Positions 1,796-24,344 of a stretch of 64,000 bases of DNA are shown piece after piece. The stretch's first letter is position 1. Each line of letters opens with the position of its first letter. Location: contig NZ_HG326652.1 in assembly GCF_000308295.2 (NCBI RefSeq), positions 1,056,392 to 1,120,391 on the forward strand, given 5' to 3'. The notes beneath the pieces were generated by a model. It saw nothing but the letters and a program-made list of their open reading frames with translations, searched no databases and was not told where the DNA came from. Both the position numbers and the translations under genes were made by a program. The DNA is from Afipia birgiae 34632. GTDB lineage: Bacteria > Pseudomonadota > Alphaproteobacteria > Rhizobiales > Xanthobacteraceae.

Positions 1796-1809
1796 CCCAT
1801 AACGTCGGC

Positions 1810-1971
1810 AGTGTCCCGTATCCGACGTTCGTTTCACTCGGCAACACCTTCCGTACGAACGTCGGATACGAAAGGACACTAGCTATTTATTGTTCTCGTG
1901 ATCCTTTGGTTCTGACATTCGTAAATGGTGTCTGCTGAGATGGAATACGAATGTCAGAACCGGATCACGAG
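1810..1971. repeat. 162-bp divergent double-hairpin element, copy 1
   Basis: Two bulged hairpins fill the queA-tgt gap. Hairpin A has arms 1810-1832 and 1855-1880 with a 22-base loop; its right arm contains an unpaired AAA. Hairpin B has arms 1895-1923 and 1946-1971 with a 22-base loop; its left arm contains an unpaired TTT. B pairs 26 bases with no mismatch apart from that bulge. Near the loops the stems read GACGTTCGT (A) and GACATTCGTA (B). The AT-rich spacer 1881-1894 separates them. Because the TTT bulge lies on opposite strands, A and B are divergently oriented. A second copy with other stem sequences but the same total length lies at 20235-20396. Confidence 0.85.
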
Positions 1972-3105
1972 ATGAGTGTTCCCAACCATTTCCAGCTTCT
2001 CGGCCGCGATGGCGAAGCGCGGACCGGCGAACTTACGACGCCGCATGGCGTTGTGCGGACGCCCGCGTTCATGCCCGTCGGTACGGCGGGCGCCATGAAG
2101 AGCATTCATTGGCGCGACATCCGTGAAACGGGTGCGGATATCGTGCTCGGCAACACCTATCACCTGATGCTGCGTCCTGGCGCTGAGCGCATCGCAGTGT
2201 TGGGTGGACTGCAGAAGTTCACCACATGGAACGGCCCGATGCTGACCGACTCCGGTGGCTTTCAGGTCATGTCGCTGGCAAAGCTGCGCAAGGTCACGGA
2301 ACATGCAGTGACGTTCAGCTCGCATATCGACGGCACCAAAGTCGAATTGTCGCCCGAGCGCGCCATCAAGGTGCAGCGTTTGCTCGGGTCCGATATCGCC
2401 ATGCAACTCGATGAGTGCGTGCGGCTGCCGGCCGAGCGGACCGATATCGAACGCGCCATGCAGTTGTCGATCCGCTGGGCGGAGCGCAGCAAACGGGCCT
2501 TCGAGACTGCACCTCCGGGATACATGCTGTTCGGGATCGTACAGGGCGGCGATATTCCCGAATTGCGCCGCGAGAGCACCCGCGCGCTGATTGACGTAGG
2601 GTTTCATGGCTATGCGGTCGGTGGACTGGCGGTTGGCGAGCCGCAGGCCGTCATGCTGGCGATGATCGAAGAGGTTGCTCCTATCCTGCCGCAGGAACGT
2701 CCGCGGTACTTGATGGGCGTCGGGACACCGGACGACATGCTGGAGGCAGTCGCGCGGGGGATCGACATGTTCGACTGCGTGATGCCGACGCGCAATGGCC
2801 GCCATGGCCACGTTTTCACGCGGCATGGCGTCATCAATTTGCGCAATGCCCGCCATGCCGATGATCCGCGTCCACTGGACGAGGAAAGCGCCTGGCGTTC
2901 GGCGAACGGCTATTCGCGAGCATACCTGCACCACCTCGTGAAATCAGAGGAGGCGCTGGGCGCGATGCTGCTGTCGGAGATCAACGTCGCGTACTATCAA
3001 AGCCTGATGAGCGGTGCCCGCGAAGCTATCGCCGCCGGGACATACGGCGATTACCGTGCATCCGTTCGCGCTGAATGGGCGCGGGGCGATATCGCGCCGC
3101 GCTGA
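1972..3105 (+). CDS. tgt: queuine/preQ1 tRNA-ribosyltransferase, zinc ligands absent
   Basis: Tgt exchanges the wobble guanine of GUN-anticodon tRNAs for preQ1. From ATG 1972 it is 377 residues, normal for the bacterial family. The active-site segments are intact: TDSGGFQVMSL with general-base Asp93, GSDIAMQLDECV, GGLAVGEP, and DCVMPTRNGRHGHVF with nucleophile Asp268. The C-terminal zinc site is not: where the family has C-x-C-x2-C and a later His, this protein has Ser306, Trp308, Ala311 and Ile337, although the flanking YSRAYLHHL is kept. An in-frame ATG at 1951 would add seven residues. ATG 1972 directly abuts the arm of the upstream hairpin and has only a weak ribosome-binding site. Confidence 0.93.
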   Translation: MSVPNHFQLLGRDGEARTGELTTPHGVVRTPAFMPVGTAGAMKSIHWRDIRETGADIVLGNTYHLMLRPGAERIAVLGGLQKFTTWNGPMLTDSGGFQVMSLAKLRKVTEHAVTFSSHIDGTKVELSPERAIKVQRLLGSDIAMQLDECVRLPAERTDIERAMQLSIRWAERSKRAFETAPPGYMLFGIVQGGDIPELRRESTRALIDVGFHGYAVGGLAVGEPQAVMLAMIEEVAPILPQERPRYLMGVGTPDDMLEAVARGIDMFDCVMPTRNGRHGHVFTRHGVINLRNARHADDPRPLDEESAWRSANGYSRAYLHHLVKSEEALGAMLLSEINVAYYQSLMSGAREAIAAGTYGDYRASVRAEWARGDIAPR

Positions 3106-20124: not shown

Positions 20125-20234
20125 TCAGATCGACTCAAGGTGGAAACTTGCTGCTGCTTTTGCATATCCCGAATGCAAGGACAGAGAAATGCTGACATCG
20201 GCAGTCATGATGGCTATATCAGCCCTCCCGGCGA

Positions 20235-20396
20235 ATGGATTGAACTGGACATTCGCGATCTTACGGCCGCGGATATGTAACGCGAATGTCCAGTTCAAAT
20301 CCATTTCAACACTATATTTGCCAGTGGCCCGTTGATTCCAACATTCGCAAACATGCCGGCTGAAACGGGATGCGAATCTTGGAATCGGGCCACTGG
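20235..20396. repeat. 162-bp divergent double-hairpin element, copy 2
   Basis: Two hairpins fill most of the recG-sdhE gap. The first has arms 20235-20257 and 20281-20304 with a 23-base loop; an extra A lies in the right arm. The second has arms 20321-20349 and 20371-20396 with a 21-base loop; an extra three bases (GTT/TTG) lie in the left arm. Loop-proximal stems read GGACATTCGCG and AACATTCGCA. The AT-rich spacer is 20305-20320. Hairpin lengths (70 and 76 bp) and total length (162 bp) match copy 1 at 1810-1971 (71, 77 and 162 bp), while most stem bases differ. Confidence 0.85.
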
Positions 20397-24232: not shown

Positions 24233-24256
24233 AGTCGCATTGGCTCCGCCCGCTCA

Positions 24257-24326
24257 TTCCCGCGCAAGCGGGAATCCAGTCATCGTATTCGGAAAGCCGG
24301 CCCCGGGTCCCCGCTTGCGCGGGGAC
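24257..24326. repeat. pair of intergenic GC palindromes
   Basis: Two short perfect hairpins lie 32 bp apart: TTCCCGC-GCAA-GCGGGAA (24257-24274) and GTCCCCGC-TTGC-GCGGGGAC (24307-24326). Their loops are reverse complements of each other, so the two form a mirrored pair downstream of mfd. They probably belong to a REP-like family and may also end mfd transcription. Confidence 0.6.
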
Positions 24327-24344
24327 GAGCGGGTTTATGGAAGC

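Follow-up and report, generated by a model that had tools for sequence, protein, structure and literature searches.

Interspersed palindromic repeats are common, and the gap between queA and tgt in Afipia birgiae 34632, which holds two large bulged hairpins in opposite orientation, raises the question of what such a pair represents, how it came to lie there and what keeps it foldable. The paired-hairpin element is a mobile repeat: an inverted pair of bulged hairpins that inserts at loose CTAG-like tetranucleotides (C-T-R-G), usually without other loss or gain. Its arms are kept complementary without wobble bias, orthologous copies included, and the pairing stops exactly at the CTAG foot. The best explanation, given a probability of about 0.58, is a non-autonomous chromosomal mobile repeat of REPIN-like character, whose working form would be folded single-stranded DNA (or a cruciform) and which would be moved by a putative enzyme acting in trans.

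Anatomy of the paired hairpins

In the window (the whole 64,000-nucleotide stretch that was analysed), NCBIfam assigns the names queA (692-1795) and tgt (starting at 1972) to two genes separated by a gap in which the first copy of the element occupies positions 1808..1971 of the forward strand (164 bp). This copy scores 159.5 bits against R1, a covariance model made from 16 copies, and covers model positions 1-167 of 167. From the sequence and its single-stranded DNA fold, the first hairpin, H1 (1808..1882, forward strand), has the feet GCAG and CTAG, outer arms at 1808-1816 and 1874-1882, inner arms of 16 bp at 1817-1832 and 1855-1870 carrying an ACGTTCG core, a 22-nt loop at 1833-1854 and, on its spacer-facing arm, an AAA bulge at 1871-1873. 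An AT-rich spacer of 12 nt, read from the sequence and without strand (1883..1894), leads to the second hairpin, H2 (1895..1971, forward strand), delimited by the same means, with the feet CTCG and CGAG, outer arms at 1895-1904 and 1962-1971, a TTT bulge at 1905-1907, again on the spacer-facing arm, inner arms of 16 bp at 1908-1923 and 1946-1961 with an ACATTCG core, and a 22-nt loop at 1924-1945. The last base of H2 directly abuts the ATG of tgt at 1972. These 3-nt bulges and 22-base loops are as an earlier note on this DNA had described them; the fixed length of 162 bp given there becomes a near-fixed one, as copy 1 measures 164 bp (the start had been placed 2 bases short) and copies scoring above 100 bits range from 157 to 171 bp. 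The single-stranded fold of copy 1 reaches -52.4 kcal/mol, against -19.2 (sd 3.0) in shuffled sequences (z -11.2). The right arm of H2 contains an in-frame ATG (1951) ahead of the usual tgt ATG (1972), which opens an ORF at 1951-3105, and from this reading frame the insertion of copy 1 could have added seven extra residues to Tgt.

The second copy (20232..20396, forward strand; 137 bits to R1 over its full length) follows the same plan in a worn state. Its H1 (20232..20307, forward strand, right edge approximate) has an 18-bp inner stem and a one-base bulge, while its H2 (20321..20396, forward strand) has a TTG bulge and a mismatch in the core; its fold departs from shuffles with a z of -10.6. 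It is flanked by a recG-like gene on the reverse strand and by a small ORF that precedes an mfd-like gene on the forward strand (names taken from a reading of the ORFs), and in this divergent gap it could affect two repair-gene promoters. The same site is empty in the related genome G026, with 4 nt (CACG) between the flanks. When the window was scanned with R1, copies 1 and 2 were found together with weaker matches on their opposite strand, and the best score elsewhere was 12.3 bits. A further GC-rich imperfect inverted repeat, with 29-nt arms, occurs at 24249-24333 and scores 11.7 bits.

A bulged-hairpin search blind to sequence recovered 312 hairpins at 148 loci, and a block-shuffled control of 60 loci yielded none, against 111 in the real sequences. 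Together with a reversed-pattern control, this excludes chance as the source of the two bulged hairpins reported at these positions of the queA-tgt gap. The plan common to the family is an outer stem of about 10 bp and an inner stem of about 15 bp (24-26 bp in total), CTAG feet, a loop of about 22 nt (20-26 nt in 283 of the 312 hairpins), an AT-rich spacer and one 3-nt bulge on each spacer-facing arm. Among 125 neighbouring hairpin pairs, 110 have both bulges facing the spacer and are therefore inverted pairs; the conserved spacing that had been proposed as a check is borne out by 109 of 114 elements, whose spacers measure 12-14 nt. Elements too close to the end of a locus were excluded. The loop motif GC.G[AC] is present in 166 of 244 loops, compared with about 56 in shuffled loops. 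The stems belong to a limited set of types, including GGATTTGACATTCG, GATTCTAACATTCG, GGTTCTGACATTCG, CGTATCCGACGTTC and several ...GAAGTTC... types, and not to the freely variable stems that the two window copies had suggested. These types interchange between the first and the second hairpin, which makes the family a mosaic.

Lone hairpins account for 58 of the 312; an inverted repeat of at least 8 bp was detected on the partner side in 30 of the 46 with enough sequence, and inspection by eye revealed a worn partner for 10 of the remaining 16. Chained hairpins of differing types that share a CTAG have been observed at L141:167-722, L165:4082-4574 and L180:5375-5706, and look as if newer units had been inserted into the feet of older ones. 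At L043:1358-1496, the left part of an H1 seems to have been fused to an H2 by deletion.

Spread, insertion and target site

The core pattern ACRTTCGY-N18-30-RCGAAYGT occurs at 57 places in the 5.33-Mb genome, against one for the reversed control. A search of the same genome with R1 gave 129 strand-wise matches, collapsed manually to at least 69 full-length places and three weak or partial matches, 150 of 1667 candidates having been scored; about 70 copies are thus present. Building a covariance model from the copies has therefore uncovered further members, as the earlier note had anticipated, both here and in relatives. Every one of the 29 genus genomes searched has matches to R1. So do 12 of 20 additional genomes of the family, 3 of 32 genomes of the order outside that family, and 12 of 249 further genomes drawn from the Alphaproteobacteria, these last belonging to nine more families. 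Copy counts in these relatives are lower bounds (the best 35 or 11 candidates per genome were scored) and include both strands. A scan of named genomes returned at least 114 stretches; among the 80 matches listed are records of Afipia, Bradyrhizobium and Nitrobacter, together with metagenome-assembled genomes labelled Pseudolabrys, Rhodoplanes and Rhodospirillaceae, and a few odd names which may be mislabelled. Viral contigs scanned with one exact H2 pattern gave no match, nor did plasmid records searched by BLAST with two elements. The distant loci L309-L318 and L322 have an identical plan, mostly with an AAGTTCG-type core. In a distant family, L320:1501-1633 is alike in feet, bulges and spacer, but its loops are only a few nucleotides long.

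Comparison of orthologous sites has revealed that presence of the element varies between close relatives. The queA-tgt gap lacks it in all 27 readable genomes among the 28 others of the genus (contig L104 stops short). Presence or absence at orthologous loci, another of the proposed checks, was determined for 53 elements, namely the queA-tgt copy and 52 more compared through their flanks with four or five close relatives, and for 48 of the 53 the site is unoccupied in one or more relatives. This proportion is on the high side, since the searches omitted 2 of 14 flank pairs in the second round and 14 of 38 in the third, many of them common to the relatives G013 and G026. The gap left at empty sites is most often 4 nt long and CTAG-like (62 of 140 alignments); gaps of 3, 5 or 6 nt account for another 36 of the 140, and insertion may be less precise than a 4-nt replacement. 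The 23 cleanest targets follow a C-T-R-G consensus; the weighted count of sites, out of 23, is 17.5 for C at the first position and 14.1 for G at the fourth. At 19 of these 23 sites, neither end of the occupied copy matches the tetranucleotide of any relative, as at L328, where 4 of 4 relatives have CAAG and the occupied copy reads CTAG...CTGG; an end does match at the remaining four, two of which are CTAG throughout and uninformative.

These target sites bear directly on the possibility of an ordinary MITE, one that a DDE insertion sequence mobilised while duplicating a 4-bp CTAG-type target and whose ends became blurred later. Several groups of insertion sequences prefer CTAG or YTAR targets, the empty site measures 4 nt, and CTAG stands at both ends of 57 of 114 elements, all of which would agree with such an origin. 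Among the 57 elements with a non-CTAG end, which are the informative ones, just two (L017 and L152) have identical ends, fewer than in shuffles. The ends are mostly CTAG and the targets mostly not, with 19 of 23 targets found at neither end; each CTAG foot pairs within its own hairpin, and no insertion sequence with such ends was seen in the loci read. Target duplication is not the rule, and a DDE-moved MITE is accordingly considered improbable.

The target letters are usually lost, which would come about by one of two routes: the mobile repeat puts its CTAG feet in place of the target, or a foot derived from the target is later overwritten by hairpin-guided correction. The second option fits L019, and L323 with one of three relatives, where target, outer foot and inner foot are the same. 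It is also kept alive by a weak match between targets and feet, the targets fitting the outer feet of their own element slightly better than shuffled targets do (P 0.02, 21 sites). At L300, L286 and L289, sites occupied in the window genome, element remnants of 13-19 nt that start with a foot have been observed; their sequence suggests decay by deletion in the sister species.

Pairing, constraint and the nature of the folded form

The 244 inner stems compared, which span many types, contain 3660 cells, made up of 3585 Watson-Crick pairs, 28 G-T, 22 A-C and 25 other combinations, and most inner-stem positions show several pair types. For this set the offsets were picked by best pairing, 10 of 254 hairpins with fewer than 11 of 15 inner pairs were dropped, and the cells count sequences, not events. 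When 16 copies were aligned with MAFFT, pairing was found in 97.3% of cells, a share that falls to 26-36% if the partners are slid by 1-3 columns. The feet take part in the stem: CTAG pairs with CTAG in 141 of 228 hairpins, 35 are altered on both sides yet complementary and 52 are mismatched, and in a second sample complementary feet were found in 22 of 63 non-consensus cases, against 8 in shuffles. From the first base past the foot, the complementarity of the arms is at chance. The covariation expected by the earlier note is in part present, as two-sided changes occur at 19 pairs of the 16-copy alignment against 11.6 in shuffles; in part it is not, as pair types are in no excess (33 against 33.4) and the signal largely reflects one split between two subfamilies.

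The earlier note had held that selection acts on the folded form, in RNA or single-stranded DNA. The first of these statements stands on the position-exact pairing, on the Watson-Crick proportion and on stems kept at orthologous loci, and the second can be narrowed towards DNA. Constraint on one RNA would favour G-U, and G-T is no commoner than A-C in the whole set; counted along the sense strand, 45 co-directional loci have 16 G-T and 30 A-C. This points towards DNA. For annotators, it means that strong covariation in a bacterial hairpin does not necessarily indicate an RNA.

An RNA element, be it a bidirectional terminator, an attenuator or a 3'-end stabiliser whose transcript fold is selected, would nevertheless account for the strong folds, for stems conserved in place at orthologous loci and for an intergenic placement at median distances of 54 and 47 bp from the nearest ORFs. 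In the accessible part of one source, REP-like repeats of Bradyrhizobium are described as transcribed in 3'-UTRs (PMC5082802). Against this, beyond the missing G-T preference, a rough ORF call places 49 elements between co-directional, 25 between divergent and just 14 between convergent genes (25 of 88 thus being divergent); another 8 fall within an ORF and 2 are unclear. In copy 1 no long T-run comes after either hairpin, and close species differ in presence at most loci tested. No Rfam family was detected at threshold: the sole match at gathering score in the window is a tRNA, and a relaxed E-value gave nine matches, all far below gathering scores. Wobble symmetry, gene orientation and Rfam together lead to a low rating for a terminator, riboswitch or sRNA, and an RNA function of this kind is regarded as very unlikely.

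Comparison of orthologues indicates that resident copies of the mobile repeat are under constraint. In 12 orthologous pairs, 37 of 1223 stem bases have changed (3.0%), compared with 80 of 470 in loops (17%), 42 of 267 in spacer and bulge and 101 of 940 in flanks (10.7%), and the difference between stems and flanks is significant (Fisher 3e-13). The changed pairs comprise 8 two-sided ones, all of which still pair, and 11 one-sided ones (4 G-T, 4 A-C and 3 other). As the copies of the window genome had been chosen by their fit to the model, which flatters the stems on that branch, orthologous copies found by their flanks alone are also of importance: 17 of 846 pairs are broken in these, where half the flank divergence would predict about 86. 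This count used 17 of 20 such copies, several of one lineage, three partly deleted ones (below 85% coverage) having been dropped.

It might be supposed that such palindromes are upheld neutrally, by template switching or hairpin-mediated correction from arm to arm, with no function, and that the sequence of the inner foot comes to replace that of an outer foot derived from the target. This would account for two-sided transversions such as CG>GC, for feet that are altered but complementary, for the usual loss of the target letters and for the equal rarity of G-T and A-C. Unbiased correction alone should leave the rate of change unlowered, yet the stems diverge far less than the flanks and loops, and purifying selection on foldable DNA is hence the simplest reading for the resident copies. 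Neutral upkeep would also leave unexplained the bulge, spacer and foot common to several families, as well as the new insertions, and it is rated as rather unlikely. Stems 3.5 times more conserved than their flanks are not what is expected of a parasite merely decaying after insertion, which suggests that resident copies serve the cell (a structured DNA binding site is one possible role) or that foldable copies alone persist.

The putative mover and comparison with known systems

For the REPIN-like mobile repeat preferred here, a structure-specific enzyme supplied in trans would grip both bulged hairpins together, and either strand would be usable because the element is nearly symmetrical. The 4-nt CTAG foot would be swapped with a CTAG-like target, so that the feet of the element take the place of the target tetranucleotide, an exchange likened more to a swap of sticky ends or coupling sequences than to copying with a duplicated target. 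Occasional ends keeping the target letters could then be the other outcome of one heteroduplex. A target equal to an end at 4 of 23 sites, together with the weak target-foot match, is not predicted by a pure replacement model.

The search for such an enzyme has centred on the REP-associated HUH transposases. The window genome yielded a single Y1_Tnp match, a RAYT with ordinary GTAGCCCGGAT REPs on its flanks. At L050 (G000:C3:244949-245284), a RAYT-like gene has GTAGCCCGG-type REP motifs on each side, from which it follows that a conventional REP system coexists with the paired hairpins in this genome. Y1_Tnp is present in 16 of 50 genomes of the family; where at least 20 element matches had been scored, 4 of 8 genomes have it, compared with 2 of 14 below that number (Fisher P 0.14). 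At E<=1e-3, none was detected in G024, G038 and G047, despite at least 35, 32 and 32 scored element matches, respectively. When 25 Y1 loci were checked for two core types, 24 were without paired hairpins and one, L255, had a pair, a strong IS200-type Y1 gene adjoining the element there. Y2_Tnp of the IS91 type was found in 0 of 29 genus genomes, control genomes being equally silent. No transposase was seen among the 18 largest clusters of ORFs neighbouring the elements, and the loci read contained no autonomous copy, no transposase gene between hairpins and no recurrent mobile-gene neighbour.

A REP or REPIN of known kind, moved by a REP-associated HUH (Y1) transposase, would combine an inverted pair, irregular hairpins, a foot tetranucleotide and the absence of target duplication, and several observations agree with this. 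The accessible parts of the sources report that REPINs are inverted REP doublets with compensatory hairpin changes (PMC3116915), that the bulges and foot tetranucleotide of REPs are required for cleavage and that guide tetranucleotides pick the cleavage site of IS608 (PMC8266576). Here the inverted doublet with inward bulges is likewise the mobile unit, the outer and inner feet covary as a guide and its target might (the 35 altered yet complementary cases), Y1_Tnp is more frequent in the high-match genomes, and one IS200-type Y1 gene lies beside an element. On the other hand, no GTAG lies beyond the stem, the CTAG of either side takes part in base pairing, Y1_Tnp was undetected in the three high-copy genomes and the sole Y1 gene of the window genome sits within ordinary REPs. 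Insertion of IS200/IS605 elements retains the target tetranucleotide, whereas here it stands at neither end in most of the clean sites. The stems of 24-26 bp also exceed the 6-13 bp of described GTAG families; most of these are short-looped according to the part of the source available, yet the loops of Bradyrhizobium GTAG-14 reach 27 bp, and loop length alone is consequently no ground for excluding a REP (PMC3733652). The distribution of Y1 and the two elements with identical ends have led to a slightly higher weight for a HUH transposase and a slightly lower one for the preferred explanation. A RAYT or IS200-type mover is considered less likely, and a REP of known kind is on balance unlikely.

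A broader reading extends the mobile repeat to a class-wide form of single-stranded DNA mobility in Alphaproteobacteria, independent of a known HUH transposase and of target duplication, in which a dedicated putative enzyme would read two inward-bulged hairpins and swap palindromic 4-nt CTAG feet, with resident copies domesticated as structured DNA sites; this is put forward tentatively, as a possibility with the odds against it. One family unites a near-fixed two-hairpin plan across many families of the class, covariation without wobble bias, in-place stem constraint and a tetranucleotide that is usually replaced. This combination makes both RAYT-free movement as folded single-stranded DNA and a cellular service by resident copies testable.

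Among known systems, the IS200/IS605 ends (IS608, ISDra2) are alike in their bulged subterminal hairpins, a tetranucleotide target read by guide pairing and the lack of duplication; in the present case the hairpins are mutually inverted, the tetranucleotide is within the stem, the target is usually lost and the elements contain no tnpA. The hairpin of integron attC, as single-stranded DNA, is recognised by structure and extrahelical bases and not by sequence, and elements of the Tn916 type exchange a short coupling sequence with their target. The paired hairpins recall the former in a structure-read hairpin and the latter in a short overlap exchange, with no cassettes and an overlap of 4 nt. 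Nearer relatives may be sought among rhizobial repeats. RIME of Sinorhizobium consists of two large palindromes in a mosaic arrangement, and RIME/ABC resemble the element as rhizobial intergenic repeats with two palindromes, so that a kinship is possible. R1 had no match on pSymB of S. meliloti, and 350 kb of this replicon held no palindrome recurring three times or more. Br-REP1 and Br-REP2, intergenic palindromic repeats of Bradyrhizobium and thus alike in kind and from the same bacterial family, are described in the accessible part of their source, which states that one of them belongs to a larger element occurring in Nitrobacter, Oligotropha and Afipia (PMC5082802). Their consensus was found in 0 of 133 elements with up to 20% mismatches.

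The question of whether the element belongs to a catalogued family of the REP type receives a divided answer: the inverted doublet of REPINs is present, while a GTAG or CGTC tag, the REP stem length, a flanking RAYT, Br-REP1/2 and an Rfam match are not. The view that the paired layout is undescribed has gained support, in that no Rfam family matches and no description of it was recognised in the open-access literature, including papers on a Methylobacterium genome and on Sinorhizobium sRNAs in their accessible parts (subscription papers lie mostly outside this range, and RIME was compared by description only). The closest comparison is with the REPIN/BIME and its RAYT, which share with the element a dispersed intergenic inverted pair, irregular hairpins, compensatory changes and a foot tetranucleotide. 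The REP tag (GTAG/CGTC) stands at one end beside the stem, whereas the CTAG foot is paired and found at both ends of each hairpin, the stems and loops are long, the bulges face the spacer, no flanking RAYT was found and the target tetranucleotide is usually lost. The element works like a REPIN yet departs from REPs in most of the membership tests run; what is new beyond the earlier note is its mobility and the single architecture shared by several types of hairpin stem.
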